A stretch of DNA of 64,000 nucleotides from Paracyclopina nana (lineage: Eukaryota; Arthropoda; Copepoda; Cyclopoida; Cyclopettidae). The first letter of the stretch is position 1; every line of letters starts with the position of its first letter. Below, one piece after another: positions 42,057 through 64,000 of this stretch. The position numbers were made by a program, and so were the translations under genes. The stretch covers positions 1,245,001-1,309,000 of the forward strand of contig JAGUCH010000008.1 of the NCBI GenBank assembly GCA_019096065.1. The letters run 5' to 3'. Under the pieces are notes generated by a model. The model saw only the letters and a program-made list of their open reading frames with translations. It made no database searches and was not told the origin of the DNA.

Positions 42057-42156
42057 CGTAGGCCCGCCCTCCGCTGTCCATTTATGGACGCCTTTACCTA
42101 GTTGTAGAAACAGTATTTTTCTTAAGCAATCCTATGCCAAAAAAAAAAAAAAAAGT

Positions 42157-42228
42157 AGGTCCCACCGAGATTTGAACTCGGATCGCTGGATTCAAAGTCC
42201 AGAGTGCTAACCATTACACCATGGGACC
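42157..42228 (-). tRNA. tRNA-Gln (anticodon TTG)
   Basis: The minus-strand 72-nt sequence begins GGTCCCATGGTGTAATGG and folds completely: acceptor GGTCCCA/TGGGACC with discriminator T, D-arm, anticodon arm CTGGA-CTTTGAA-TCCAG (anticodon TTG) and T-arm CCGAG-TTCAAAT-CTCGG. There is no intron, and the CCA is not encoded. On the minus strand it is followed within a few bases by a run of about 16 T (42139-42154), a Pol III terminator. This is the only intact tRNA in the window, in contrast to seven degenerate tRNA-like units. It lies about 330 bp upstream of the PPP1R27-like start codon on the opposite strand. Confidence 0.97.
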
Positions 42229-42560
42229 TTCCTTCTTAGCTCTCATCTTTGTTTACTCTATTTAAAGCAAGGGAAAGTTTGCTTTACTGCAGTAGCACAA
42301 TAGCAATTTGTGCTACACCGAGTTGAACTCTGTTGATCTCGAAATCCAGTACAAAACACAGACTAACAGGTGAAATTGATGATGACACACATGGAAAAAA
42401 ATAACAGTGCAGGTGTTTTTCTGTTCCAGGCTCAAAACCGCAAAATCGAATTCAGTCCATGGTGAATTATTATCATTTCTGGAGGGGCCCAAAATCATCA
42501 TCATTTTCATTTGGGGGCCATTTTGGTTTTTTCTCCCCCTCTTAATGACCGCTGAGTGCA

Positions 42561-45500
42561 ATGAGTCGAAGAGCGAGCATTTTTGTGAGAAATAATCCGG
42601 GAAAACGCAGGGTGAGATTTCCGGATGAGGTCATCTTCGAAAATGAAATCCGGGAAAAGGATGGCGATGCAGTGATGACCATGCTCAGAAGGGCTTCAAT
42701 TGACATTGACATAAACAGGATCAACTCAGCAGGTAAATGTAGTCAATGCTAGATAGGCGTCCAAGGCGAGGAAACGGCGCTTCAACGCCTTGGGTCATTT
42801 GAGCGGATCGAGCAATTGTGTCCTTTGCTCAGTGCGAAGCTTCTGAGGCCAAATTCAGCAAAGTGGAATTCTTTGTTACGTTCTTTCATCCTTAAGTTAG
42901 CGTAATTTAGTCACCTATTCAATTTGCTCCTCATGTAAACAAATCAACTAAACTAGTTAGGAGTCCAGAGCGGCGGAGCAATGCTTCACCGCCTTTGATG
43001 ATTTGAGCGGAGTGAGCAAAGTGAATTAGACTGATAAAAATGTATGCAATGCTAGATAGGTGTCCAAGGCGAAGAAACGGCGCTTCAACGCCTTGAGTCA
43101 TTTGAGCGGATCGAGTAATTGTGTCCTTTGCTCAGGTAGAAGCTGCTGAGCAAATCAACTAGTTAGGAGCCCAGAGCGGCGGAGTAATGCTTCACCGCCT
43201 TTGATGATTTGAGCAGAGTAAGAAAAGTGAATTTGACTGATAAAAATGTATGCAATGCTAGATAGGCGTCCAAGGCGAGGAAATGGTGCTTCAACGCCTT
43301 AGGTCATTTGAGCGGATTGAGTAATTGTGTCCTATACTCAGTGCGAAGCTTATGAGAGCAAATTCAGCAAAGCAGAATTCTTTGTAATGTTGTTTCATCC
43401 TTAAGTTTGGGTAATTTAGTCACCTATTCAATTTGCTCCTCATGTAAACAAATCAACTAAACTAGTAAGGAGTCCAGAGCGGCGGAGCAATGCTTCACCG
43501 CCTTTGATGATTTGAGCGGAGTGAGCAAAGTGAATTAGACTGATAAAAATGTATGCAATGCTAGATAGGTGTCCAAGGCGAAGAAACGGCGCTTCAACGC
43601 CTTGAGTCATTTGAGCGGATCGAGTAATTGTGTCCTTTGCTCAGGTAGAAGCTGCTGAGCAAATCAACTAGTTAGGAGCCCAGAGCGGCGGAGTAATGCT
43701 TCACCGCCTTTGATGATTTGAGCAGAGTAAGAAAAGTGAATTTGACTGATAAAAATGTATGCAATGCTAGATAGGCGTCCAAGGCGAGGAAATGGTGCTT
43801 CAACGCCTTAGGTCATTTGAGCGGATTGAGTAATTGTGTCCTATACTTCTGAGAGCAAATTCAGCAAAGCAGAATTCTTTGTAATGTTGTTTCATCCTTA
43901 AGTTTGGGTAATTTAGTCACCTATTCAATTTGCTCCTCATGTAAACAAATCAACCAAACTAGTAAGGAGTCCAGAACGGCGGAGCAATGCTTCACCGTCT
44001 TTGATGATTTTAGCGGAGTAAGCAAAGTGAATTTGACTGATAAAAATGAGGCGAGACTGAGACGTTTCTGAGGCGCAATTGTTGGAGTACAGGGCTCATG
44101 TGCGTGCGGTCTGAGTTCAAGTCCCCTGAAAGCTTTTTATTAATTGTAAGATTCCATTTTTTAGTCATGTTGCCTTTCGCACTTTTGTATTGTGTTTGTG
44201 AACCTTAAAAGAGTTTTTGGGAAAATCTTGCTTGGGACATTCCGTTCCATTGCATACAAATAAATGGGCTGATAATACCAAAGTATTTGCTCAGCTCTGG
44301 CAGATTATCTCGCTCCGCTCTAAGAACACTGTCTAAAAAATCAGCTGTTGGGCATTATTTACAATTATGCAAGGTTAGAGTGCTATTTGGGCACCAATAC
44401 ATTTGGGACGTGCAGCTGTTGCGCGCGCAGTGAAATCAGCTGTTGCGCGTGCGCGCGCTCGCAGGAATTTAAAACAACAATTTGCCAGCTATCTATTTAC
44501 CTAATAGATCCAAATTAAGACCTAATTTAAAAGTAAAGAGCCTTTCTCAAATTTGGCTTTTTTTGCCAAAATTCTGGCAAATTCAAGAGTCTCAAGAAAA
44601 TCCAAAAATCCACAGCTGTCTACTTTTTTCGCAAGCTGATCGCTTTCATTTGCTGTTCTGCATTATGGAGATTGCGATGCGGGTGGAAATAATCCACTGT
44701 GTCCATTTTTTCAGGGCTGACAGCGTTACACCAAGCAGTGCTTGACAATAACCTCACAGTGGTCAAGATTCTGATCAATCACGGCTCGGATATCAATCAG
44801 CAAGATGAAGACTCGTGGACGCCTTTACATGCTGCTTGCGCCAATGGCATGGCCGATATTGCCAAGTAAGTAACATAAGCCACAGCGGATTATTTTTGAA
44901 AATTGCCCCGCATTGAAAAAAATCCAACTTGAGCAAATCCAATTTTTTGCCCCCTTTTTTGGAAGCTTGCCTGGGATTGAGATGCGAGCCAAAGAGGCGG
45001 GAAATAATCCACTGTGGAAATCTCTCATCACTCATTTTAAAATCAATCAAGGAAAAATGGGTGGAGAGGGCATCATTTAAAAATGGCCGCTCCCTTTCGC
45101 GAAAAAAACGCGTTTTCAAAGTTGCACTTCAGCTGCAATTGCCAGACCTGAGATTAACAACTTTAATCTAATTTTAAACAATTTCCAGACCTGATATTAA
45201 CTATTTTAAACTAATTTTATGAAGAATAGATCTTCGAATTTTCAGCGTTAAAAAAAATGTGTTTGGATTTTAACCATTATGCATTAAAATCAGCTAAAAT
45301 GGCGTAAGTAAGACAAAAAGACTTTAGTTTACCCTAGCGTCAGCTGATTTTCAGCCTTTGATCAAATTTGGCAGGATTTTAACCTTTAAAAATCAGCTAA
45401 AACGTCGAAAGTAAGACCAATAAGAGTTTAGTTTACCCTAGCGTCAGCTGATTTTCATTTGATAAAATTTGGCAGGATTTTAACCTTGATAAAACAAGCT

Positions 45501-48464
45501 CAAAATGAGTCAAAAAGCGAAAAGGCGCCAAGTCAAGCTTTGAAAAGTAGAGTTTAGTTCACCCTAGCGTCAGCTGATTACTTTGAGGAAGGCGTGTTCC
45601 CGCAATTTGGCGGAAAAATAAGAAAAGCAAGAGCGAAGGAGATTGCATTCATCTTTTGCTCACATTCTTGCGCGTGGAAGTGAAAATCACTGCGAATTGA
45701 ATGGCTGGTAATGCAGTAATGACTTTTTGAACCCTTTACTCGAGAATTAACAAGTCACGCTCCCCCTCAGCCCATTGTGCGCGGGTCACACGCTCGTTTT
45801 TATTGGCACGTGAATGTGCACAGCATAACGCAGAAATTACGTCCCATTTGAACTTTTTTGTTTTCAATTAGCAGAAAACGCGGGATTTTTTCAGCGATCC
45901 GCCCAGTGTGCGCACTATGTCGTGGGTAGCTGCTACTAAAGTGTTACAGCTAATCACAGTGGTCTGAGCGGAAAAAATTTGCTCATAAAATGCGGATTGT
46001 TTAAAACTTTTTGGTTTTTGAATGACAGCCCCAAAATTGCTTTAGAAATTGACTTGTCAGCTCCCAAATTTGAAATTGGACCAGAAAGATTGCTGTTTAT
46101 TTGCTTTCAGCACCGCTAAATTATCTTCCGTCAAATTGCAGCGTGCACGCGCAAAAATGACTTTTGTGACAACTTACATGCACCAACCTTCACTAAAGAT
46201 AAGAAAACAAGTACTAAAATATAAAAGTTGAAACTGCATCAGACCAACTTGACAATTTGACTCGTAAAAGTTGTCAAAAAATGCAAGGATTTCACGGTTT
46301 TTCTGCATTGAAGAATTATCAATGAAAAGCCTTTAAATAAGTATGATAATTAGATTGTAAATACTTATTTGAAAACTATAACATTTGTTAATGCTGACAA
46401 TAGGAATTGGTCAGTTTTTTTGAATAATTAACGGATTTCAGCTGTTGCGCGCGCGATGAAGTCAGCTGTCGCGCGCGCGCGCAATTTCCAAGACATCGTA
46501 AAATTGTAACCAAAATGGCGCGTAAATCAAGGAAGTGCACAATTTGTTGGCTGGAAACAATGGCAGCAATAAAACCATTTGCAAACATTATCTTGGATTG
46601 CAGAGCAGTAAACAAAGAAGGCGGATTTTGACATACAAAAAATTTGGAGCTCATTATAAAGAAGTTGTTGGAGGAAAATGCGTCGTTTCAGCCATTGATG
46701 ATCGATTCTTCTTGATGGTTTTCGATGCAAGTGGGTGACTAATGGCAGGATTGCGTGGCCTGATAAAGATTCCATTAGTAGCAGAGCAGGGGGAATTTTC
46801 GACAAAACATCCTCATTTCAGCTACCCAAAAAATCCTTGAACTTTGCCCTCCTCTACGAGGAAATTTTCTAATGAGCCAACGAGATTATTTGTAGCGAGA
46901 ACTGCTCGCAGGAAGTCGTTAAATTGGTTGATTCTTCAACGTGAGTCAGCTGTCGCGCGGGCGCGGCTGTCTGCTGCACCGGCGCGCGCTTAAAAGTAAA
47001 ACTAGTTTCGAGGAGTACATTTTTCATCTAAAAAGGTAAACAATTGTGAGAACTGATTTTAATTGTTGACTTTTTTTGCAGATGTTTAAAAACGGAAATT
47101 AGAGGTCAGCTGACGCGAGGGCCCGCAACGTCAGCTGTTGTTTGTGTGAAATATACAAACTTTTGAGTGAATCACAATTTCAAAACTCTCGCCAATTACA
47201 TTTTAGTCAACAATTGGAACTTTGCCATAAATTCAATTCCTTTACAAAATGGGGATATGTGAAAAAAAAACAAAAATCAGCTGACGCGAGGGCCCGCACT
47301 TCAGCTGCTATTAGTTAGTTAAGACTAACAGTTTCAGCCTTAAAATAAGTGACTTATCACAGATTAATGGGTGAAATGAGTAAGAGTGAGATAATGGTCA
47401 GCTGACGCGAGGGCGCGCGAAAATTCAGCTGTTGCGCGCACACAAATCGCACCCAAATTCAATGCAGGCAATTTTTCATCCCCGATTCCAAGTTAAAATT
47501 GGAAAATAATGACAGATTTTGGAACTTACACAAAAGGGTGGAGTTGAAGATTGGAGGATATAATAACAATATTGTTTTTCCGCCCAAGATTTTAGCTAAA
47601 GATTATTTCCTCAGCTGAGCAGAACCAAAAATTGACAAATTCACATCTGGCCAAGTTTGAGTGCAAATCATGTAGCGAAATGTTGAGCTTTTTTGGTGAC
47701 ATCATGAAAAGTTGCTCAAATGTGGATCTCCACCTGTTTCAATTCAGTTTAAGTGCATTTTGCATTTCGCACAAGATGAGTCATCCCAAAATGGCAAAAG
47801 TAAGAGAAGAAGAAATGCACTTTTAAGGGAGGTTCCAACTTCAAATTATGGAACTTTGCATTAAGTTGTGTTACAGCTGCTTGTTAAGTTAATTTTCAAG
47901 CCTGCTTGAGATCATTCTTTACATACTCCAAGGATGTAAAGTATTAATACACTATCAACCTTTCAATTTTTTGGAGCATCTGAGAGTTGTAAAATGAAAA
48001 AAGGTCTTATCATCCATAAATGTTTTGGGTACACTGTCACTAAATAGGGTTTTTTCACTTTACAGCCCTAGCCCAACGACTTTACATCCCTGAATGAAAA
48101 GTAATTTACGCAGGCCTTTCTACGCTGTTTTTCATGCCAGTAGCAAAAAATGAAACTAAAAAGTGACGTTGTAAAGTAAAATTCCCAGGTATTTTACATC
48201 CCTGTTTACATCCCACCTTTGCGTAAAAATAGATATTCACCTTTGAAACTTAGTTATAATGAAGGGTTTTCACTTTACAGGCCTGTGAGCTGTTTTACAT
48301 CCCTAGCACGTTTAACAACAAAGTATTTTTCCAGGTTCTTATTGGAGGCTGGGGCAAACCGAAACATTTTGACAGACCAAGGCGAACGCCCTGTGGACTT
48401 AATTGATCCTGGAGATGCAAGAATGGTTGCAGTCATGTTAACACCGATGGAAAAGAAGCGCTAA
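42561..48464 (+). CDS. PPP1R27: PPP1R27-like protein phosphatase 1 regulatory subunit with ankyrin repeats
   Basis: Three exons, 42561-42732, 44715-44865 and 48335-48464, join (phases 1 and 2) to 150 residues, close to the ~154 aa of vertebrate PPP1R27. KRRVRF at 15-20 is an RVxF docking motif for the PP1 catalytic subunit, followed by FPDEVIFENEIREKD as in the family. Ankyrin repeats cover about 58-121: GLTALHQAVLDNNLTVVKILINHGSDIN and DSWTPLHAACANGMADIAKFLLEAGANRN. The tail ERPVDLIDPGDARM matches the family's DLIDPD end. It should bind and inhibit or target PP1 in the cytoplasm (known for PPP1R27; inferred here). Only 453 coding bases are spread over 5.9 kb. Intron 1 is filled with a higher-order repeat containing sequence from the next gene's exon. 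A possible 5' UTR acceptor TTCTGTTCCAG ends at about 42429. Confidence 0.9.
42737..44050. repeat. ~510-bp higher-order repeat (300 + 208 bp units) in the PPP1R27-like intron 1
   Basis: Five units begin GCAATGCTAGATAGG (first AGTCAATGCTAGATAGG) at about 42741, 43038, 43248, 43551 and 43757, alternating about 300 and 208 bp. The array starts within 10 bases of the exon-1 donor. Each unit has a CCAAGGCG...CGCCTTGG-type hairpin module, a central block homologous to the XKR-like exon 2/intron 2 junction, and a second module (GAGCGGCGG...CACCGCC). Short units lack about 95 bp of the central block. The array ends at a tRNA-like unit. Confidence 0.88.
44061..44134 (+). repeat. tRNA-like unit 7 (degenerate)
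   Basis: GAGGCGCAATTGTTGGAGTAC (weak A box) and TGAGTTCAAGTCCCC (good B box) are followed by CTTTTTATT. Stems are poorly paired. It lies directly at the end of the 510-bp higher-order repeat. Confidence 0.45.
45300..45570. repeat. ~105-bp tandem repeat with TTTACCCTAGCGTCAGCTGA core
   Basis: Three copies carry the TTTACCCTAGCGTCAGCTGA core (TTCACCCTAG in the third) at about 45330, 45430 and 45560, separated by GGCAGGATTTTAACC and AAATCAGCTAAAA words. They lie in intron 2 of the PPP1R27-like gene. The core resembles the ends of the MITE at 3595-3725. Confidence 0.8.
46435..47440. repeat. Dispersed CAGCTG/GCGCGC modules in the PPP1R27-like intron 2
   Basis: CAGCTGTTGCGCGCGC and CAGCTGACGCGAGGGC modules occur at about 46440-46480, 46947-46990, 47105-47142, 47279-47310 and 47399-47440, usually as an inverted or direct pair. 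Similar modules lie upstream at about 44411-44460 (outside these coordinates). Otherwise the intron is AT-rich, so these are sharp GC islands of 40-60 bp. Confidence 0.75.
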
Positions 48465-48634: not shown

Positions 48635-48713
48635 AGTTCCGAAATTCGATTTTTAACAATTATTCAAAAACTCTCCATATATTTAAAAAAGTTCCTTTTG
48701 ATATAAACTTGTT

Positions 48714-48775
48714 AGGAGTCCAAGACGCGAAAATTGCGTCTTGGAGTCCCGGATTATTCGAGCGGAGTAGAATTT
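48714..48775. repeat. Single hairpin module (CCAAGACGC stem)
   Basis: TAGGAGTCCAAGACGC is followed by a 7-base loop and GCGTCTTGG, a perfect 9-bp stem (48720-48744), then GATTATTCGAGCGGAGTAG. This is the same layout as the modules at 10.85, 42.76 and 50.91 kb but with different stem bases. Confidence 0.75.
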
Positions 48776-49468: not shown

Positions 49469-50883
49469 ATGTCTGGCGAAATTATGAGACAGGCAAACGA
49501 AAATACTGAGTTAGCTGAGCTCGATGAAATCGACCTCAGAGCTGAGAAACCAGACTGCAAAGCAGAAGAGGCCAAAAGTGAGCTAAAACAGCCAGTTTTT
49601 GGCTTTGTCAGCTTTCTCACGCTGAAAATCCTTTTCTTTGACATTGTCATTTCTGTGGGCGATGTGGGATCGGATTTTGCCCAGGGCTGGCAATTGATCC
49701 AGTCCAAACAGGTGATTTACGGCGTCATCACCATGGCGGTTAACTGGCTGCCAGGTCTGGTAGCCTTTATACATGTTATTTCCATGTACAGGCAAAAAAT
49801 GCCCGCCAAACTCACCATCACTTATGCTAGTAAGTTCTTTATTTTGTAAATAATTTGAAAAGAATCAAGAAGGGCGAAAAAGGGCAAAATATGAAAAATA
49901 CTAAAATTGACCGAGTTTGGCCACAAAATCAAAAATTGACGAAATCAAACAAAAGTAGCCTGAATTGGAGGAGAGAGACGCCAAATGGGCAAAGATGGGC
50001 AATAATAGACATTGAAGGGCCGAAATGGGCAATTAACAGGACAAAAAAGCTATTTAAAGTATCTCAAAGGAACCCTAGGTAATTTTGGGCAATTAGAGCT
50101 TAAAGTGGGCTAAAATGGGAGTTATAAATAATAAAGGGCACTTTTGGGCAACAAGAGCTTATAGTGGGCTAAAATGGGTGTTTTAATTAATAAAAAGCAC
50201 TTTTGGGTAATACGCGCTAAAAGTGGACAAAAATGGGCACTGTAAATAGAAAAGGGCCCTTATAGCAAATAAGACATAAAAGTGGGCCAATATTGACAAT
50301 GGAAATAGTAAAAGGCACTTTTGGGCAAAAAGAGCCTAAAAGTGGGCGAAAATGGGCACAGTATATAGTAAAGGGTACTTTTGGGCAATAAAAGCTTAAA
50401 GTGGGCCAAAATGGGTGTTTTAACTAATAAAGGGCATTTTTGGGGCAACAAGAGCCAATAAGTGGGCCAAAATGGGCACTGGAAATAGTTTAGGCACTTC
50501 TGGTGAAATAGGGCTTTTGCAGGGCAATAAGAGCGAAAAAAGCACTTTAAAGCATGTTTTCAAGTTGATTTTCAGTACTTTTGCTGACATTTTACCCCAT
50601 TGTGCCCCCCTTGGCCTACGTCATCATGCTTTGGAATCGACCTCGTCGAGGCCGGTCGGGTTCTGTGGCCGTTTCGAGGTTCAATTCGTTGCAATTGTCG
50701 ATAAGAAGGAAGAAAAAGGTGTCAGTGAAGGCTGAAGAGGGGCTACAGAGGAAAAAGGCCTCCATTTTGTCCTTTGCTGAGCTCGGAGCTGCTGAGATCA
50801 AATTCAGAGAAGTGGAATACTTGGCCATGTTGTCACACGCCATCGCTGGTGGAATCGAGTCGCCAATTCAATTTGCTCTTCAG
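49469..50883 (+). CDS. XK-related-like multi-pass membrane protein, 5' part (3' exons not found)
   Basis: Exons 49469-49829 and 50576-50883 join in phase to the first 223 residues; the second ends in phase 0 at CTTCAG|GTAGGA. An acidic cytosolic N-terminus (about 1-40) is followed by hydrophobic segments at about 44-64 (FGFVSFLTLKILFFDIVISV), 82-106 (VIYGVITMAVNWLPGLVAFIHVISM) and 121-140 (ILLLTFYPIVPPLAYVIMLW). GDVGSDFAQGW and, after a very basic loop, FREVEYLAMLSHAIAGGIESPIQFALQ resemble the XKR DxGTD and ESxPQ motifs. XKR/CED-8 proteins are plasma-membrane lipid scramblases; whether this one scrambles is unknown. Intron 1 has a gggcaa repeat and intron 2 begins with a hairpin module followed by a 2.7-kb minisatellite. 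The remaining exons lie beyond the repeats or outside the window. Confidence 0.6.
49880..50530. repeat. ~62-bp degenerate repeat in XKR-like intron 1
   Basis: About nine copies are built of AAAGTGGGCTAAAATGGGC and AAAGGGCACTTTTGGGCAA words. They fill the intron almost from donor to acceptor. Confidence 0.85.
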
Positions 50884-51119
50884 GTAGGAAAATCAACTGA
50901 ACTAACTAGGTGTCCAAGGCCAAGGGAAGGTGCTTCGCCGCCCTGGATGATTTGAGCGCAGTGAACTAGGCTCAAAACTGAGAATGGACCGTTGCGTCGG
51001 TAACACTCTCATGTTCAGCGCACAAAAATGCTCAAATTGACATAGATTTCATATGAAAGAACACAAAAAACCTGAAATTCCTATGAGGTCAATAGCAGAG
51101 CACAAAAAATCTCAATTTT

Positions 51120-53850
51120 TCTTTCCCAACCATAAATTTCGTTTTGCCTCTTTTTTCTCAATCACCACCCATCACCACCCAGATATGAATTTTGTTTTGC
51201 CTCTTTTTTCCCAATCACCACCCATCACCACCCTGATATGAATTTCGTTTTGCCTCTTTTTTCCCAATCACCACCCATCACCACCCAAAATGATTTTGGA
51301 TTTGGTCTTTTTTTTCTGATCACCACCCATCACCACCAAAACATAAATTTTGTTTTGCCTCTTTTTTCCCAATCACCACCCATCACCACCCAGATATGAA
51401 TTTTGTTTTGCCTCTTTTTTCCCAATCACCACCCATCACCACCCAAAATGATTTTGGATTTGGTCTTTTTTTTCTGATCACAACCCATCACCACCCAAAC
51501 ATAAATTTCGTTTTGCCTCTTTTTTCCCAATCACCACCCATCACCACCCAAAATGATTTTGGATTTGGTCTTTTTTTTCTGATCACCACCCATCACCACC
51601 CAAACATAAATTTCGTTTTGCCTCTTTTTTTCTGATCACCACCCATCACCACCCAGATATGGATTTTGTTTTGCCTCTTTTTTCTCAATCACCACCCATC
51701 ACCACCCAGATATGAATTTTGTTTTGGCTCTTTTTTCCCAATCACCACCCATCACCACCCAAAATGATTTTGGATTTGGTCTTTTTTTCTGATCACCACC
51801 CATCACCACCCGAACATAAATTTCGTTTTGCCTCTTTTTTCTCAATCACCACCCATCACCACCCAGATATGGATTTTGTTTTGCCTCTTTTTTCCCAATC
51901 ACCACCCATCACCACCCAAAATGATTTTGGATTTGGTCTTTTTTTCTGATCACCACCCATCACCACCCAAACATAAATTTCGTTTTGCCTCTTTTTTCTC
52001 AATCACCACCCATCACCACCCAGATATGAATTTTGTTTTGCCACTTTTTTCCCAATCACCACCCAAAATGATTTTGGATTTGGTCTTTTTTTTCTGATCA
52101 CCACCCATCACCACCCAAACATAAATTTCGTTTTGCCTCTTTTTTTCTGATCACCACCCATCACCACCCAGATATGGATTTTGTTTTGCCTCTTTTTTCC
52201 CAATCACCACCCATCACCACCCAAAATGATTTTGGATTTGGTCTTTTTTTTCTGATCACAACCCATCACCACCCAAACATAAATTTCGTTTTGCCTCTTT
52301 TTTCCCAATCACCACCCATCACCACCCAAAATGATTTTGGATTTGGTCTTTTTTTTCTGATCACCACCCATCACCACCCAAACATAAATTTCGTTTTGCC
52401 TCTTTTTTCTCAATCACCACCCATCACCACCCAGATATGAATTTTGTTTTGCCACTTTTTTCCCAATCACCACCCAAAATGATTTTGGATTTGGTCTTTT
52501 TTTTCTGATCACCACCCATCACCACCCAAACATAAATTTCGTTTTGCCTCTTTTTTTCTGATCACCACCCATCACCACCCAGATATGGATTTTGTTTTGC
52601 CTCTTTTTTCCCAATCACCACCCATCACCACCCAGATATGAATTTCGTTTTGGCTCTTTTTTCCCAATCACCACCCATCACCACCCAAAATGATTTTGGA
52701 TTTGGTCTTTTTTTCTGATCACCACCCATCACCACCCGAACATAAATTTCGTTTTGCCTCTTTTTTCTCAATCACCACCCATCACCACCCAGATATGAAT
52801 TTTGTTTTGCCTCTTTTTTCCCAATCACCACCCATCACCACCCTGATATGAATTTCGTTTTGCCTCTTTTTTCCCAACCACCACCCAAAATGATTTTGGA
52901 TTTGGTCTTTTTTTCTGATCACCACCCAAGTATGAATTTTGTTTTGGCTCTTTTTTCCCAATCACCACCCATCACCACCCAAAATGATTTTCGATTTGGT
53001 CTTTTTTTTCTGATCACCACCCATCACCACCCAAGTATCAATTTCGTTTTGCCTCTTTTTTCCCAATCACCACCCATCACCACCCAAAATGATTTTGGAT
53101 TTGGTCTTTTTTTTCTGATCACCACCCATCACCACCCAAACATAAATTTCGTTTTGCCTCTTTTTTCTCAATCACCACCCATCACCACCCAGATATGAAT
53201 TTTGTTTTGCCTCTTTTTTCCCAATCACCACCCATCACCACCCTGATATGAATTTCGTTTTGCCTCTTTTTTCCCAATCACCACCCATCACCACCCAAAA
53301 TGATTTTGGATTTGGTCTTTTTTTCTGATCACCACCCAAGTATGAATTTTGTTTTGGCTCTTTTTTCCCAATCACCACCCATCACCACCCAAAATGATTT
53401 TCGATTTGGTCTTTTTTTTCTGATCACCACCCATCACCACCCAAGTATGAATTTCGTTTTGCCTCTTTTTTCCCAATCACCACCCATCACCAACCAAAAT
53501 GATTTTGGATTTGGTCTTTTTTTTCTGATCACCACCCATCACCACCCAAACATAAATTTCGTTTTGCCTCTTTTTTTCTGATCACCACCCATCACCACCC
53601 AGATATGGATTTTGTTTTGCCTCTTTTTTCTCAATCACCACCCATCACCACCCAGATATGAATTTTGTTTTGCCTCTTTTTTCCCAATCACCACCCATCA
53701 CCACCCTGATATGAATTTCGTTTTGTCTCTTTTTTCCCAATCACCACCCATCACCACCCAGATATGAATTTCGTTTTGCCTCTTTTTTCCCAATCACCAC
53801 CCATCACCACCCAGATATGAATTTCGTTTTGCCTCTTTTTTCTCATGCAT
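51120..53850. repeat. 2.7-kb pyrimidine-rich minisatellite with higher-order structure
   Basis: Monomers of about 52-57 bp share TCACCACCCATCACCACCC and a TTTTTTCCCAA or TTTTTTTCTGA tract. At least three types alternate: AGATATGAATTT, AAAATGATTTTGGATTTGG and AAACATAAATTTCG. Rare variants repeat at about 410 bp: CCACTTTTTT at 52041 and 52452, and AGTATGAATTTTG at 52929 and 53339. The array lies in or after intron 2 of the XKR-like gene, and its plus strand is strongly C+T-rich. Open frames of up to 116 codons in it are repeat artefacts. Confidence 0.95.
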
Positions 53851-53942
53851 CACCCATTACCAACCTGGTTCTGCCTCACATTTAGAGTCAAGTTGCCTCA
53901 AATTATCAGCCATTACTTGGCCGTTCTCATATTGCAGGTAAA

Positions 53943-54091
53943 AGCTGAGCTAAGGAAAAAATAGCTAAGCTAAGGTAAAAATTATGCAACGAAAACTGGT
54001 TTTTTCGCTCAACATTCACAAAAAGCAGCTACTTTGCTTGAAATGTTGAGCGTTTGCTTAGCTATTTTTACCCTAGCTTAGCTTTTTCAAA
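53943..54091. repeat. Imperfect foldback
   Basis: AGCTAAGCTAAGGTAAAAAT...CGCTCAACATT faces AATGTTGAGCG...ATTTTTACCCTAGCTTAGCT. The arms are about 60 bp and imperfect. It sits between the minisatellite and the first inverted satellite fragment. Confidence 0.65.
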
Positions 54092-54106
54092 GAATTTCGC
54101 GTTTTC

Positions 54107-54262
54107 GTTTGATTTTGCCTCAAATTTAGAGTCAACTTGCCATTAAGTAACAGCTGCAACTGACATTTTGAGTTTTTGAAAATGTCAATAATTTCGAGTT
54201 TTGACTCAAAGGGCAGTGGCCAGATATCCAGCGCACAGAATCCCCGAAATAGGCACGCCCGC
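54107..54262 (-). repeat. Inverted fragment of the 169-bp satellite plus its unique border
   Basis: Read on the minus strand, this contains the satellite words AATGTCAGTTGCAGCTGTTA and GAGGCAAA. It also holds a 39-bp sequence (54212-54250) identical to the plus-strand border of the large array at 58929-58967. A further satellite scrap in the same inverted orientation lies at 53875-53920. Confidence 0.88.
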
Positions 54263-54484
54263 ATTCATTGAGCATCACAAATAAGACAAGAAATCACAGC
54301 ACACAGAATTACCGAAATGGGCACGCCCGCGATTGAGCATCAAAAGGAAACACAGCAATCCCAAGAAAAAATGGCTGTCCTAAGGCCGACCAAAGCTTCC
54401 TGGGCGGGCGCGCTAGCGCGAGGGACCTGTAGCAACATAACCCAGAGCCGCTGGAAGCGACCCGGGCCAGCGTCCTCACCAAAA

Positions 54485-55980
54485 GCCACCTAAAGCTCCT
54501 AGCTCAAAAAGTTGGCAAAAAACATGCTAGTTTTCAGCTAGCATTTTGCACTAGGAGATTAGTCCTATCAAAACTAGGTAAAAAAAGACCAAACTTTGGC
54601 CTTTTTCAAAAAATGCAATTTCGCATTGGCAATTGTTCACGTTACGCGAGTTTCGCTACTAGCTCAAAAAAGTTGCCAGAAAATATGCAAGTTTTCAGCT
54701 CGCATTTTGCACTAGGAGATTAGTCCTATCAAAACTAGGTAAAAAAAGACCAAACTTTGGCCTTTTTCAAAAAATGCAATTTTGCTCTGGCAATTATTCA
54801 CATTACGCGATTTTCGCTCCTAGCTCAAAAAAGTTGCCAATAAATATCCTAGTTTTCAGTTAGTTTTGGCACTAGGAGACTTGTCCTGTCAAAACTAGGT
54901 GAAAGGGAGGCAAAAGTTTGGCCTTTGTGAAAAAATTCAATTTTGCTAATTATTCACGTTACGCGACTTTGGCTCCTAGCTCAAAAAAATTGCCTATAAA
55001 TATGCTGGTTTTCATTTAGCATTTTGCACTAGGAGACTAGTCCTGTCAAAACTAGGTGAAAAAAGCAAAAGTTTGGCCTTTGTGAAAAATTCAATTTCGC
55101 TCCGGCAATTACGCTCCCAGCTCAAAAAAATTGCTGCTAGTTTCAGTTAGTTTTTGCACTAGGAGACTAGTCTGGTCAAAACTAGGAGAAGCAAAGGCTT
55201 AATTTTGGCCTTTGTCAAAAAATGCAATTTTGCTCCAGTAATTATTCACGTTACGCGAGTTTCGCTCCCAGTTCAAAAAAGTCGCCAAAAAATATGCTAG
55301 TTTCAGTTAGTTTTTGCACTAGGAGACCAATCTGGTCAAAACTAGGAGAAGCCAAGGCTTATTTTTGGCCTTTGTCAAAAAATGCAATTTTGCTCCATTA
55401 ATTATTCACGTTACGCGAGTTTCGCTCTCAGTTCAAAAAAGTCGCCAAAAAATATGCTAGTTTCAGTTAGTTATTGCACTAGGAGACTAGTCTGGTCAAA
55501 ACTAGGTGAAGCAAAGGCTTAATTTTGGCCTTTGTCAAAAAATGCAATTTTGCTCCAGTAAGTAATACGTTACGCGAGTTTCGCTCCCAGTTCAAAAAAG
55601 TTGCCAAAAAATATGCTAGTTTCAGTTAGTTTTTGCACTGGGAGACTAGTCTGGTCAAAACTAGGTGAAGCAAAGGCTTAATTTTGGCCTTTGTCAAAAA
55701 ATGCAATTTTGCTCCAGTAATTACTCACGTTACGCGAGTTTCGCTCCCAGCTCAAAAAAGTTGCCAAAAAATATGCTAGTTTCAGTTAGTTTTTATACTG
55801 GGAGACTAGTCTGGTAGAACTAGGTGAAGCAAAGGCTTAATTTTGGCCTTTGTCAAAAAATGCAATTTTGCTCCAGTAATTACTCACGTTACGTGAGTTT
55901 CGCTCCCAGCTCAAAAAAGTTGACAAAAAATATGCTAGTTTCAGTTAGTTTTTGCACTGGGAGACTAGTCTGGTCTTTGG
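54485..55980. repeat. ~160-bp tandem satellite, about 9 copies
   Basis: The unit contains GCACTAGGAGACTAGTC, TCAAAACTAGG, TTTTGGCCTTTGTCAAAAAA and CACGTTACGCGAGTTTCGCT. Spacing is about 157-161 bp with one short unit (about 130 bp). Early copies (54.5-54.9 kb) are more diverged than later ones. It is not related in sequence to the 169-bp satellite. Confidence 0.93.
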
Positions 55981-55997
55981 CAACTTGACTCATAGTC

Positions 55998-56166
55998 TCA
56001 GTCTTTCGCAAGTTTTGTAGAGTCACGCGATTTTTAAAAATAGCTCATAACATAAAACGTATTTAAATAGCAGCTATTTAAGTACGTTCAGAGGCTATTT
56101 AAATACATTTTATGCTATGAGCTATTTAAATAGCGTGACAATACAAAACTTGCGAAAGACTAAGCC
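55998..56166. mobile_element. Foldback element copy 3 (169 bp) at a satellite boundary
   Basis: It begins CTCAGTCTTTCGCAAGTTTT and ends CTTGCGAAAGACTAAGCC, with internal CACGCTATTTAAATAG-type arms, matching the copies at 4.3 and 4.5 kb. ATAG occurs on both sides as a possible short target duplication. It sits exactly between the 160-bp and 169-bp satellites and interrupts a GACTCATA...GACTCAT context. Confidence 0.82.
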
Positions 56167-56170
56167 ATAG

Positions 56171-58165
56171 TTTTGACTCATTTTGAATTGCAATTGCAAT
56201 TTGAAACTTGCGCATCGCGTTATACTACTCCATAACTGCTAAGAATGTGCGAAATTCTTGACTTGGCCAATTGTGAGTCAACAATTCAATGACAGCTGTT
56301 TATTTGAGGCAACTTGACTCATAATGTGAGGCAAAGTCAAACTTTTGTTTTATTTTGAATTTATAAATGCGAAAACTTGCGCATCGCATTATGCTACTCC
56401 ATAAATGCTAAGAATGCGCAAAATTCTTGACTTGGTCAATTGTGAGTCAACAATTCAATGACAGCTGTTTATTTGAGGCAACTTGACTCATAATGTGAGG
56501 CAAAGTCAAACTTTTGCCTCATTTTGAATTCGCAAATGCAAAAACTTGCACATCGCGTTATACTACTCCATAAATGCTAAGAATGCGCGAAATTCTTGAC
56601 TCGGTCAATTGTGAGTCAACAATTCAATGACAGCTGTTTATTTGAGGCAACTTGACTCATAATGTGAGGCAAAGTCAAACTTTTGTTTTATTTTGAATTT
56701 ATAAATGCGAAAACTTGCGCATCGCATTATGCTACTCCATAAATGCTAAGAATGCGCAAAATTCTTGACTTGGTCAATTGTGAGTCAACAATTCAATGAC
56801 AGCTGTTTATTTGAGGCAACTTGACTCATAATGTGAGGCAAAGTCAAACTTTTGCCTCATTTTGAATTCGCAAATGCAAAAACTTGCACATCGCGTTATA
56901 CTACTCCATAAATGCTAAGAATGCGCGAAATTCTTGACTCGGTCAATTGTGAGTCAACAATTCAATGACAGCTGTTTATTTGAGGCAACTTGACTCATAA
57001 TGTGAGGCAAAGTCAAACTTTTGTTTTATTTTGAATTTATAAATGCGAAAACTTGCGCATCGCATTATGCTACTCCATAAATGCTAAGAATGCGCAAAAT
57101 TCTTGACTTGGTCAATTGTGAGTCAACAATTCAATGACAGCTGTTTATTTGAGGCAACTTCACTCATAATGTGAGGCAAAGTCAAACTTTTGTTTTATTT
57201 TGAATTTATAAATGCGAAAACTTGCGCATCGCATTATGCTACTCCATAACTGCTAAGAATGCGCGAAATTCTTGACTCGGTCAATTGTGAGTCAACAATT
57301 CAATGACAGCTGTTTATTTGAGGCAACTTGACTCATAATGTGAGGCAAAGTCAAACTTTTGCCTCATTTTGAATTCGCAAATGCAAAAACTTGCACATCG
57401 CGTTATACTACTCCATAACTGCTAAGAATGCGCGAAATTCTTGACTTGGCCAATTGTGAGTCAACAATTCAATGACAGCTGTTTATTTGAGGCAACTTGA
57501 CTCATAATGTGAGGCAAAGTCAAACTTTTGCCTCATTTTGAATTCGCAAATGCAAAAACTTGCACATCGCGTTATACTACTCCATAAATGCTAAGAATGC
57601 GCGAAATTCTTGACTCGGTCAATTGTGAGTCAAAAATTCAATGACAGCTGTTAATTTGAGGCAACTTGACTCATAATGTGAGGCAAAGTCAAACTTTTGC
57701 CTCATTTTGAATTCGCAAATGCAAAAACTTGCGCATCGCATTATGCTGCTCCATAACTGCTAAGAATGCGCGAAATTCTTGACTTGGCCAATTGTGAGTC
57801 AACAATTCAATGACAGCTGTTTATTTGAGGCAACTTGACTCATAATGTGAGGCAAAGTCAAACTTTTGACTCATTTTGAATTTGCAAATGCAAAAACTTG
57901 CGCATCGCATTATGCTACTCCATAACTGCTAAGAATGCGCAAAATTCTTGACTTGGTCAATTGTGAGTCAAAAATTCAATGACAGCTGTTTATTTGAGGC
58001 AACTTGACTCATAATGTGAGGCAAAGTCAAACTTTTGCCTCATTTTGAATTCGCAAATGCAAAAACTTGCACATCGCGTTATACTACTCCATAAATGCTA
58101 AGAATGCGCGAAATTCTTGACTCGGTCAATTGTGAGTCAAAAAGTCAATGACAGCTGTTAATTTG
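56171..58165. repeat. 169-bp satellite, subfamily I (about 12 monomers)
   Basis: GACAGCTG starts recur at 56291, 56460, 56629 and 56798, exactly 169 bp apart. Two monomer types alternate over the first copies: one with TTTTGTTTTATTTTGAATTTATAAATGCG, the other with TTTTGCCTCATTTTGAATTCGCAAATGC, giving a 338-bp dimer; later copies are mixed. It is clearly homologous to the subfamily after 59 kb (GAGGCAA, TTGACTC, AAATTCTTGAC, CAGCTGTTA). Confidence 0.95.
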
Positions 58166-58169
58166 AAGC

Positions 58170-58910
58170 AAGAAAAATTGAAAAGCTTAGTAGTAAGCAA
58201 CTGACGCTTCTCAAAACAGATTGGCTGGCATTTAATCGCTTTTGTGAGGGCGCATGATAATTTTAACAGGTCATTGACCCCCTGAGCACATGAGGACAAG
58301 TTTTGTAGCAAGAAAAAAGTTTTTCTGGCAGGCCAGTATATAAGCGCTTAAATGAGGGCGCGCGAGAATTCAAACAGGTCATTGACCCCCTGAGCACCTG
58401 AGGACAAGAAATTTGGCTAGAAAAAAGTTTTTTCCTGGCGGGCTGGCATGAAAGAGCTGAATAGAAGGCGCGCGAGAATTTAAACAGGTCATTGACCCCG
58501 CCGGAGAATTAAATCAGGTCATTGACCCCCTGAGCACATGAGGACAAGAAATTTGGCTAGAAAAAAGTTTTTTCCTGGCGGGCCGGCATTAAAGCGCTGA
58601 AATGAGGGCGCGCGAGAATTTAAACAGGTCATTGACCCCGCCAGAGAATTTAAACAGGTCATTGACCCCCTGAGCACATGAGGACAAGTAATTTGGCAAG
58701 AAAAAAGTTTTTTCCTGGCGGGCCGGCATTAAAGCACTGAAATGAGGGCGCGCGAGAATTTAAACAGGTCATTGACCCCCTGAGCACATGAGGACAAGTA
58801 TTTTAGCAAGAAAAAAGTTTTTTCCTGACCAGCCGGTATAAATGCGCTTAAAAGAGGGTGCGCAAGGATAGGCAGGGCGCGATCTGAGTTTTTTGTTGCA
58901 CTTGCCCAGC
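58170..58910. repeat. ~110-bp GC-richer tandem repeat between the two satellites
   Basis: About six irregular units carry AAAAAGTTTTTTCCTGGCGG, GAGGGCGCGCGAGAATTT and CAGGTCATTGACCCCCTGAG. Some units hold a duplicated TTTAAACAGGTCATTGACCCC half. GTCATTGAC is itself palindromic. Confidence 0.9.
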
Positions 58911-58928
58911 TTGGTTGCGGGCGAGCCA

Positions 58929-61900
58929 ATTTCGGGGATTCTGTGCGCTGGATATCTGGCCACTGCCGAAATTCTTGCCCTAGTCAAATTTGAGTCAAAA
59001 TGTCAGTTGCAGCTGTTACTTTGAGGCAAGTTGACCCTAAATGTGAGGCAAAGTAAAATATTTGACTCATTTTGAATTCGCATTCGCGAAAGCGAAAACT
59101 TGCGCACCGTGGTATACTTCTGCTAAACTGCAAGGAAAACGCAAAATTCTTGACCTAGTCAAATTTGAGTCAAAATGTCAGTTGCAGCTGTTACTTTGAG
59201 GCAAGTTGACCCTAAATGTGAGGCAAAGTAAAATATTTGACTCATTTTGAATTCGCAAAAGCGAAAACTTGCGCACCGTGGTATGCTTCTGCTAAACTGC
59301 AAAGAAGACACATAATTCTTGCCCTAGTCAAATTTGAGTCAAAATGTCAGTTGCAGTTGTTACTTTGAGGCAAGTTGACCCTAAATGTGAGGCAAAGTAA
59401 AATATTTGACTCATTTTGAATTCGCAAAAGCGAAAACTTGCGCACCGTGGTATACTGCTACTAAGCTGCAAAGAAAACACGAAATTCTTGACCTAGTCAA
59501 ATTTGAGTCAAAATGTCAGTTGCAGCTGTTACATTGAGGCAAGTTGACCCTAAATGTGAGGCAAAGTAAAATATTTGACTCATTTTGAATTCGCAAAAGC
59601 GAAAACTTGCGCACCGTGGTATACTGCTACTAAGCTGCAAAGAAAACACGAAATTCTTGACCTAGTCAAATTTGAGTCAAAATGTCAGTTGCAGCTGTTA
59701 CATTGAGGCAAGTTGACCCTAAATGTGAGGCAAAGTAAAATATTTGACTCATTTTGAATTCGCAAAAGCGAAAACTTGCGCACCGTGGTATGCTTCTGCT
59801 AAACTGCAAGGAAAACGCGAAATTCTTGCCCTAGTCAAATTTGAGTCAAAATGTCAGTTGCAGCTGTTACTTTGAGGCAAGTTGACCCTAAATGTGAGGC
59901 AAAGTAAAATATTTGACTCATTTTGAATTCGCATTCGCGAAAGCGAAAACTTGCGCACCGTGGTATACTTCTGCTAAACTGCAAGGAAAACGCAAAATTC
60001 TTGACCTAGTCAAATTTGAGTCAAAATGTCAGTTGCAGCTGTTACTTTGAGGCAAGTTGACCCTAAATGTGAGGCAAAGTAAAATATTTGACTCATTTTG
60101 AATTCGCAAAAGCGAAAACTTGCGCACCGTGGTACACTTCTGCTAAACTGCAAAGAAGACACATAATTCTTGCCCTAGTCAAATTTGAGTCAAAATGTCA
60201 GTTGCAGCTGTTACAATGAGGCAAGTTGACCCTAAATGTGAGGCAAAGTAAAATATTTGACTCATTTTGAATTCGCATTCGCGAAAGCGAAAACTTGCGC
60301 ACCGTGGTATACTTCTGCTAAACTGCAAGGAAAACGCGAAATTCTTGCCCTAGTCAAATTTGAGTCAAAATGTCAGTTGCAGCTGTTACTTTGAGGCAAG
60401 TTGACCCTAAATGTGAGGCAAAGTAAAATATTTGACTCATTTTGAATTCGCAAAAGCGAAAACTTGCGCACCGTGGTATGCTTCTGCTAAACTGCAAGGA
60501 AAACGCGAAATTCTTGCCCTAGTCAAATTTGAGTCAAAATGTCAGTTGCAGCTGTTACTTTGAGGCAAGTTGACCCTAAATGTGAGGCAAAGTAAAATAT
60601 TTGACTCATTTTGAATTCGCAAAAGCGAAAACTTGCGCACCGTGGTACACTTCTGCTAAACTGCAAAGAAGACACATAATTCTTGCCCTAGTCAAATTTG
60701 AGTCAAAATGTCAGTTGCAGTTGTTACTTTGAGGCAAGTTGACCCTAAATGTGAGGCAAAGTAAAATATTTGACTCATTTTGAATTCGCAAAAGCGAAAA
60801 CTTGCGCACCGTGGTATACTGCTACTAAGCTGCAAAGAAAACACGAAATTCTTGACCTAGTCAAATTTGAATCAAAATGTCAGTTGCAGCTGTTACATTG
60901 AGGCAAGTTGACCCTAAATGTGAGGCAAAGTAAAATATTTGACTCATTTTGAATTCGCAAAAGCGAAAACTTGCGCACCGTGGTATACTGCTACTAAGCT
61001 GCAAAGAAAACACGAAATTCTTGACCTAGTCAAATTTGAGTCAAAATGTCAGTTGCAGCTGTTACAATGAGGCAAGTTGACCCTAAATGTGAGACAAAGT
61101 AAAATATTTGACTCATTTTGAATTCGCATTCGCGAAAGCGAAAACTTGCGCACCGTGGTATACTTCTGCTAAACTGCAAGGAAAACGCGAAATTCTTGCC
61201 CTAGTCAAATTTGAGTCAAAATGTCAGTTGCAGCTGTTACATTGAGGCAAGTTGACCCTAAATGTGAGGCAAAGTAAAATATTTGACTCATTTTGAATTC
61301 GAACAAGCGAAAACTTGCGCACCGTGGTATACTGCTACTAAGCTGCAAAGAAAACACGAAATTCTTGACCTAGTCAAATTTGAGTCAAAATGTCAGTTGC
61401 AGCTGTTACATTGAGGCAAGTTGACCCTAAATGTGAGGCAAAGTAAAATATTTGACTCATTTTGAATTCGCAAAAGCGAAAACTTGCGCACCGTGGTATG
61501 CTTCTGCTAAACTGCAAGGAAAACGCGAAATTCTTGCCCTAGTCAAATTTGAGTCAAAATGTCAGTTGCAGCTGTTACATTGAGGCAAGTTGACCCTAAA
61601 TGTGAGGCAAAGTAAAATATTTGACTCATTTTGAATTCGCATTCGCGAAAGCGAAAACTTGCGCACCGTGGTATACTTCTGCTAAACTGCAAGGAAAACG
61701 CAAAATTCTTGACCTAGTCAAATTTGAGTCAAAATGTCAGTTGCAGCTGTTACTTTGAGGCAAGTTGACCCTAAATGTGAGGCAAAGTAAAATATTTGAC
61801 TCATTTTGAATTCGCAAAAGCGAAAACTTGCGCACCGTGGTACACTTCTGCTAAACTGCAAAGAAGACACATAATTCTTGCCCTAGTCAAATTTGAGTCA

Positions 61901-64000
61901 AAATGTCAGTTGCAGTTGTTACTTTGAGGCAAGTTGACCCTAAATGTGAGGCAAAGTAAAATATTTGACTCATTTTGAATTCGCAAAAGCGAAAACTTGC
62001 GCACCGTGGTATACTGCTACTAAGCTGCAAAGAAAACACGAAATTCTTGACCTAGTCAAATTTGAGTCAAAATGTCAGTTGCAGCTGTTACATTGAGGCA
62101 AGTTGACCCTAAATGTGAGGCAAAGTAAAATATTTGACTCATTTTGAATTCGCAAAAGCGAAAACTTGCGCACCGTGGTATACTGCTACTAAGCTGCAAA
62201 GAAAACACGAAATTCTTGACCTAGTCAAATTTGAGTCAAAATGTCAGTTGCAGCTGTTACAATGAGGCAAGTTGACCCTAAATGTGAGACAAAGTAAAAT
62301 ATTTGACTCATTTTGAATTCGCATTCGCGAAAGCGAAAACTTGCGCACCGTGGTATACTTCTGCTAAACTGCAAGGAAAACGCAAAATTCTTGACCTAGT
62401 CAAATTTGAGTCAAAATGTCAGTTGCAGCTGTTACTTTGAGGCAAGTGGACCCTAAATGTGAGGCAAAGTAAAATATTTGACTCATTTTGAATTCGCAAA
62501 AGCGAAAACTTGCGCACCGTGGTATACTGCTACTAAGCTGCAAAGAAAACACGAAATTCTTGACCTAGTCAAATTTGAGTCAAAATGTCAGTTGCAGCTG
62601 TTACAATGAGGCAAGTTGACCCTAAATGTGAGACAAAGTAAAATATTTGACTCATTTTGAATTCGCATTCGCGAAAGCGAAAACTTGCGCACCGTGGTAT
62701 ACTTCTGCTAAACTGCAAGGAAAACGCAAAATTCTTGACCTAGTCAAATTTGAGTCAAAATGTCAGTTGCAGCTGTTACATTGAGGCAAGTTGACCCTAA
62801 ATGTGAGGCAAAGTAAAATATTTGACTCATTTTGAATTCGAACAAGCGAAAACTTGCGCACCGTGGTATACTGCTACTAAGCTGCAAAGAAAACACGAAA
62901 TTCTTGACCTAGTCAAATTTGAGTCAAAATGTCAGTTGCAGCTGTTACATTGAGGCAAGTTGACCCTAAATGTGAGGCAAAGTAAAATATTTGACTCATT
63001 TTGAATTCGCAAAAGCGAAAACTTGCGCACCGTGGTATACTGCTACTAAGCTGCAAAGAAAACACGAAATTCTTGACCTAGTCAAATTTGAGTCAAAATG
63101 TCAGTTGCAGCTGTTACAATGAGGCAAGTTGACCCTAAATGTGAGACAAAGTAAAATATTTGACTCATTTTGAATTCGCATTCGCGAAAGCGAAAACTTG
63201 CGCACCGTGGTATACTTCTGCTAAACTGCAAGGAAAACGCAAAATTCTTGACCTAGTCAAATTTGAGTCAAAATGTCAGTTGCAGCTGTTACATTGAGGC
63301 AAGTTGACCCTAAATGTGAGGCAAAGTAAAATATTTGACTCATTTTGAATTCGAACAAGCGAAAACTTGCGCACCGTGGTATACTGCTACTAAGCTGCAA
63401 AGAAAACACGAAATTCTTGACCTAGTCAAATTTGAGTCAAAATGTCAGTTGCAGCTGTTACATTGAGGCAAGTTGACCCTAAATGTGAGGCAAAGTAAAA
63501 TATTTGACTCATTTTGAATTCGCAAAAGCGAAAACTTGCGCACCGTGGTATACTGCTACTAAGCTGCAAAGAAAACACGAAATTCTTGACCTAGTCAAAT
63601 TTGAGTCAAAATGTCAGTTGCAGCTGTTACAATGAGGCAAGTTGACCCTAAATGTGAGACAAAGTAAAATATTTGACTCATTTTGAATTCGCATTCGCGA
63701 AAGCGAAAACTTGCGCACCGTGGTATACTTCTGCTAAACTGCAAGGAAAACGCAAAATTCTTGCCCTAGTCAAATTTGAGTCAAAATGTCAGTTGCAGCT
63801 GTTACTTTGAGGCAAGTTGACCCTAAATGTGAGGCAAAGTAAAATATTTGACTCATTTTGAATTCGAACAAGCGAAAACTTGCGCACCGTGGTATACTGC
63901 TACTAAGCTGCAAAGAAAACACGAAATTCTTGACCTAGTCAAATTTGAGTCAAAATGTCAGTTGCAGCTGTTACATTGAGGCAAGTTGACCCTAAATGTG
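58929..64000. repeat. 169/175-bp satellite, subfamily II, with 513-bp trimeric higher-order repeat
   Basis: After a unique 39-bp border (58929-58967) there are about 30 head-to-tail monomers up to the end of the window. Starts of GTCAGTTGCAGCTG at 59002, 59177, 59346 and 59515 show 175- and 169-bp monomers; the longer form has a 6-bp ATTCGC insertion. At least six monomer types are recognisable (for example GTGAGACAAAG, CGAACAAGCG, GAAGACACATAA). From 62.6 kb the same three-monomer order repeats with GAGACAAAG at 62630, 63143 and 63656, exactly 513 bp apart. Every monomer keeps a GAATTC site. The array continues past the window. Confidence 0.97.

Follow-up and report, generated by a model that had tools for sequence, protein, structure and literature searches.

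We found that the three long units of a tandem array in the first intron of a PPP1R27-like gene match the end of exon 2 and the beginning of intron 2 of the neighbouring XKR-like gene, with alignment scores of 66-91 against shuffle maxima of 16. The array probably arose by a local DNA duplication of ~460 bp into the PPP1R27-like intron, followed by decay and then by tandem duplication. The core of an earlier, sequence-only reading, in which a piece of coding exon with its splice site was copied upstream and then amplified, is thereby supported, but the extent given for the piece was too narrow and the amplification is modest. The genome totals 92 Mb in 10 contigs; the window, that is, the whole stretch of 64,000 nucleotides analysed, corresponds to C8:1245001-1309000, and positions past 64000 are quoted as C8 coordinates. 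Features lie on the forward strand unless marked (-).

Exon 1 of the PPP1R27-like gene (42561..42732, with the ATG at 42561 and the donor GT at 42733) comprises 57 codons plus one base and contains an RVRF stretch, presumably a motif; scanned alone, it has no Pfam match. Exon 2 (44715..44865, end approximate) contains ankyrin repeats (Pfam family Ank_5 at 44717-44863, E 4e-14), and the name PPP1R27 is putative. The last exon (48336..48464, start approximate) was read from the sequence and has no Pfam match. TTTTCAG acceptors had raised the suspicion of a nematode origin, which was dropped when a spliced-leader pattern searched with at most one mismatch gave 0 matches. In the XKR-like gene, exon 1 (49469..49829) matches a paralogue on contig C1 (E 1e-15), and exon 2 (50576..50883) is an open frame along which the C1 paralogue aligns across to the last residues. 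The first 115 bp of intron 2 (50884..50998) contain an H module, described below, at 50902-50964 and one copy of an 8-bp target duplication at 50991-50998. Exon 3 starts at C8:1316153 and later exons, located via the C1 paralogue, extend to ~C8:1320340; the last of these are placed by their order and by weak matches (E 2.9) and are to be taken as predictions. The name XKR-like is tentative. In a single-exon scan, exon 1 reached 14.4 bits (E 0.019) with the Pfam family XK-related (PF09815), whose cut-off is 24.8 bits, and exon 2 had no match to this family. A genome-wide search for the XK-related family gave 16 matches, none of them in the XKR-like gene or the C1 paralogue, and a search against sequences of known structures gave none for exon 2 and two for the C1 paralogue, at E 0.38.

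The array spans 42737-44042 in the order L1-S1-L2-S2-L3, or ~2.5 dimers of a long and a short unit. An upstream H module of the first unit (H1, 42734..42812) lies at its head, and the repeat period begins ~3 bp inside the intron. L1 (42737..43036, 300 bp) and L2 (43246..43545, 300 bp) are identical at 280/300 positions, while L3 (43755..44042, 288 bp) is 12 bp shorter than L2. The short units S1 (43037..43245) and S2 (43546..43754), each 209 bp, correspond to a long unit minus ~94 bp and are identical to each other at 209/209 positions. When S1L2 is aligned with S2L3, 490/497 aligned bases are identical, with 12 gap positions. The pentamer AAATG at the unit junctions is also found where the host intron begins, and CAAAT is present at both break points of the ~94-bp deletion in S1. 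The array is followed by an unamplified remainder of the copied intron 2 (44043..44291), consisting of a tRNA-like part and the intron tail.

The alignments between long units and source are ungapped. L1 matches 50764-50964 at 146/201 positions (72.6%, score 91), L2 matches the same interval at 143/201 (71.1%, score 85), and L3 matches 50789-50962 at 120/174 (69.0%, score 66), with a maximum of 16 in 500 dinucleotide-preserving shuffles for each unit. The claim of an XKR-like exon border in the array is confirmed by these per-unit alignments, which score far beyond shuffled sequence. Taken alone, the exon part of L1 (source 50764-50883) is identical at 86/120 positions, a divergence of ~28% from its source, and its score of 53 compares with at most 17 in 1000 shuffles. 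For S1 and S2 the best match is limited to the H module (44/57, score 31; shuffle maxima 16 and 17). Of the five motifs said to recur in each long unit, only CAAATTCAG and ATTCAATTTGCTC are present in all three: TGTCCTTTGCT is found in L1, S1 and S2 and is absent from L2 and L3, AAGTGGAAT is confined to L1 among the array units, AAATCAACT is found in L1 and L2, and AAATCAACC in L3. As had been stated, the copies keep a readable SPIQFA and carry in-frame stops, the latter in 3/3 long units. The donor GT, by contrast, had been thought lost and is in fact retained: in the ungapped alignment CAT/GTAAAC stands opposite CAG/GTAGGA (the slash marks the exon border), and the base that was lost is the G at position -1.

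The copied piece does not end at 44050, as had been proposed, and its match goes on to 44291. Extent alignments were judged against the maximum of 23 in 300 mononucleotide shuffles. If 43846-44291 is aligned with the source intron on both sides of a 19.9-kb insertion described below (50789-50998 plus C8:1315896-1316119), 304/464 columns are identical, with a score of 115, and the match ends 33 bases before XKR-like exon 3. The part beyond the array (44042-44291 against 50974-50998 plus C8:1315896-1316119) is identical in 169/264 columns and scores 54. For the intron tail after the tRNA-like stretch (44175-44291) the signal is modest, with 86/124 columns and a score of 40. In a control with real sequence, in which the tail was scored against 550 stretches taken from the 81 kb on both strands with the source set aside, two overlapping stretches at 44 kb alone reach 40, and the next best score, with both copies also set aside, is 24. 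A genome-wide search with the tail found the tail itself alone at E <=1; the tail therefore shows no sign of being a dispersed repeat. That search is not sensitive enough for the diverged copy, whose full length is thus supported by the local alignment. The most likely reading is that the copy comprises ~120 bp of exon 2 and ~340 of the 372 bp of ancestral intron 2, or ~460 bp in total. Since an intron and a splice donor lie inside the copy, copying was DNA-mediated and did not pass through spliced RNA; a retrocopy of spliced RNA is rejected for the same reason.

A genome search with the 211-bp query 50750-50960, suggested by the sequence-only reading, yielded five places at E <=0.001, all on C8: the query itself, the three long units and one further copy of the exon fragment at C8:1318673-1318769 (-). 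Perfect matches to the 17-base exon tract ATTCAATTTGCTCNTCA are confined, in the 92 Mb, to these five places, which span no more than 31 kb; a further 18 matches with one mismatch are spread over eight contigs. The third copy as a whole (C8:1318533-1318769, -) is inverted, lies 23 kb from the source and contains 22 bp from the end of exon 2 together with ~215 bp of intron 2; it aligns to the source in segments of 138 and 130 columns, with identities of 83% and 87%, respectively. Judging from the order of the exons, it probably sits between later XKR-like exons, in an intron. Another H module (H') lies upstream of its exon piece, and the spacer between the two, aligned as a decayed exon, scores 8 against a shuffle maximum of 12. 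Two tandem tRNA-like stretches follow the H module of the third copy (C8:1318400-1318660, -); they include motifs that look B-box-like by eye, and ARAGORN called no tRNA at this locus. A SINE-type spread of the tRNA-like part was considered and rejected: among 35 matches to the third copy, this part matched itself and the XKR-like intron alone.

The source intron is today split by a 19,889-bp element (50999 to C8:1315887, no strand assigned; the window holds its left 13 kb, 50999..64000). Its inverted ends are identical at 127/130 positions and the 8-bp target duplication GTTGCGTC stands on both sides, which makes it a terminal-inverted-repeat transposon. The minisatellites from 51135 to the end of the window fall inside this element, and the ancestral intron 2 measured 372 bp. 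The element ends have 29 matches genome-wide, including its own two, and several are paired 5-23 kb apart. A second member of 5.8 kb also has an 8-bp target duplication, read from its flanks. Like the Foldback transposons Tetris and Galileo, as far as the descriptions in PMC4079207 and PMC3573991 drawn on here go, the 19.9-kb element has inverted ends that run into minisatellite-like repeats and a target duplication; a difference concerns the transposase, which was sought in the 5.8-kb relative alone, where the three ORFs of at least 120 aa all lie within repeats. Neither the array copy nor the third copy contains the element, and in the third copy the empty site is uninterrupted. Most likely, therefore, both date from before the insertion or derive from a chromosome free of the element.

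The direction of copying proposed by the sequence-only reading, from exon to array, is borne out by the C1 paralogue (C1:272341-272646), a single frame of 599 aa, seemingly without introns, that aligns with XKR-like exons 1, 2 and 3 and with one later exon. It has no Pfam match at E <=1 and may be a retrogene or an intron-loss copy. At the end of XKR-like exon 2 the aligned residues of the two genes read AITGGLESPIQLIFQ versus AIAGGIESPIQFALQ. As the paralogue conserves the exon end, the coding state is old and the array, whose copies contain stops, is the derived copy. Over the three codon positions, L1 and L2 differ from the exon at 20/80, 24/80 and 26/80 sites; an excess at the third position would be expected if both sides were coding, and its absence indicates that the array side is not. 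The opposite course of events, in which a block of a dispersed repeat was exonised into the XKR-like gene and the exon is the derived form, could draw on the resemblance of the exon end ATTCAATTTGCTC to the reverse complement of the post-H sequence GAGCAAAGTGAATT, and on the H module that adjoins the exon piece at 5/5 places. We regard it as extremely improbable, as the paralogue aligns with the exon end as well as with the flanking exons, the exact H pattern does not occur in the fetched 3.3-kb locus of the paralogue, and the exon tract is free of mismatches at only five places, four of which are copies. The copy count and the conserved exon end thus contradict exaptation of an ancient dispersed repeat, the outcome by which the sequence-only reading would have fallen. 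Nor is the array likely to be what remains of a duplicate that once covered more, or all, of the XKR-like gene. In favour of this, the copy includes both exon and intron sequence, and its decay is what a pseudogene would undergo; against it, the sequence upstream of the array (42441-42740) scores 16 (shuffle maximum 23), the exon 3 side scores 16 (23), 44292-44714 scores 24 (26), and intron 2 of the host gene scores 27 and 28 on its two strands (28 and 34). Neither XKR-like exon 1 nor the start of exon 2 nor exon 3 was found near the copy above shuffles, and we reject a larger gene duplicate on these grounds.

The H module bears on a further alternative. The sequence-only reading had the copied piece bounded by hairpin modules; modules are indeed present, but they belong to a dispersed ~60-bp repeat family, and the two array copies tested fold no better than shuffles. 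A 16-mer of H, allowing at most one mismatch, gave 212 matches, whereas its reversed pattern gave 6. Fourteen of the 84 exact matches fall into six clusters with gaps of <=509 bp; four of these clusters, with 10 sites, lie elsewhere than the array and the third copy, which make up the other two. Among the fetched clusters, those at C2:595k, C2:1079k, C3:162k, C7:495k and C1:1140k form tandem arrays, each with a spacer of its own, while the cluster at C4:8062k has two H copies at a distance of 110 bp, with the repeat limited to ~55 bp. Folding of three H copies from the window gave z values of -0.9, -0.8 and +0.4, no better than shuffles, and a consensus made by eye gave -3.9; H as a conserved structured RNA was set aside, since the tested window copies do not fold better than shuffles. 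The second H of the array is the counterpart of the H module in XKR-like intron 2 and was carried over as part of the copied piece. An extra H lies upstream of the 5' edge of both copies, ~2 bp away in the array (H1) and ~37 bp away in the inverted copy (H'). These two are 61% and 62% identical to the XKR-like H, which is not their closest relative. H loci might be hot spots of copying, through rolling-circle replication, circle integration or template switching, with the exon as a passenger; we consider this doubtful. Such an account gains from the genome-wide occurrence of H, from the several tandem clusters with locus-specific spacers, from an inverted 76% copy of the C3:162k spacer ~52 kb away, and from the extra H at the 5' edge of both XKR copies. 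It is weakened by the H copies looked at, which show no recognisable coding capacity, element ends or target duplications, and by H1 and H', whose closest relative is not the XKR-like H, contrary to a simple H-to-H duplication. Moreover, the copied piece extends ~260 bp beyond H, almost to the end of the intron, the C2:1079k spacer has no copy elsewhere at the sensitivity of the search, and the C4:8062k repeats cover only ~55 bp. That H seeds local copying genome-wide, in tandem and within tens of kb, and here carried the exon end and intron into two introns, appears rather unlikely to us, and some role of H in the copying is plausible.

The local duplication that we favour would have proceeded as follows. 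About 460 bp of the XKR-like gene, that is, the 120-bp end of exon 2, the donor and nearly all of the 372-bp intron 2, would have been duplicated as DNA and placed ~8 kb upstream, in the same orientation, in intron 1 of the PPP1R27-like gene, where coding ability was presumably lost after placement. Tandem duplication between AAATG, a few bases into the intron, and AAAAATG, after H, may then have produced repeated units, one lineage of which would have lost ~94 bp between CAAAT repeats and become the short unit. A duplication of the 509-bp pair of short and long units would have given L1-S1-L2-S2-L3; the identity of S1 and S2 and the near-identity of S1L2 and S2L3 indicate that this last step is recent. 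Part of this piece would also have been copied, in inverted orientation, into a later XKR-like intron. The 19.9-kb transposon, which neither copy carries, entered the source intron. The short matches at the junctions suggest slippage, unequal exchange or end joining, a route of repair or replication that we infer from the sequence. The extra H just upstream of the 5' edges of both copies counts against a plain random duplication. Also counting against the duplication are the mere 22 bp of exon shared by the third copy and the preceding spacer, in which no exon is recognisable. Nothing that we saw points to a function of the array, which presumably has none.

Partial gene duplications and intronic pseudogene fragments form a general class of known events. 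As in these, an exon-intron border was copied here at the DNA level and decayed at its new place; the copy includes an intron and a splice site, and the source is older than the copy. Unlike the general case, the fragment landed in an intron of the adjacent gene and was then tandemly amplified. Helitrons and Pack-type transposons are known to capture gene fragments, including exon-intron pieces. The array resembles their products in that host exon-intron pieces stand next to repeated modules, but we recognised neither the ends of a transposon nor a target duplication flanking the array or the H module; around the fragment we saw the extra H at the 5' edges and no consistent ends. The passages of PMC2812944 drawn on here describe tandem repeats that change gene structure in human segmental duplications. 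The likeness to that account lies in duplication combined with internal change of tandem repeats; the account concerns paralogous genes, whereas the array is a non-coding fragment in another gene. The event is therefore of a known kind and belongs to ordinary genome turnover, and it is unusually readable because the third copy and the transposon insertion show the sequence of events. It illustrates clearly how unique sequence of a gene can turn into repeats, with the source, a scattered copy and an amplified copy within 31 kb; the empty site of a 20-kb transposon is revealed by a copy in which the intron is preserved as it was before insertion. The short dispersed H module may mark sites of local duplication in the genome. 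Within the window, H is also found at 10824-11045 and at 48704-48768, and a tRNA-Gln (TTG) gene (42155-42229, -) lies just upstream of the PPP1R27-like gene.
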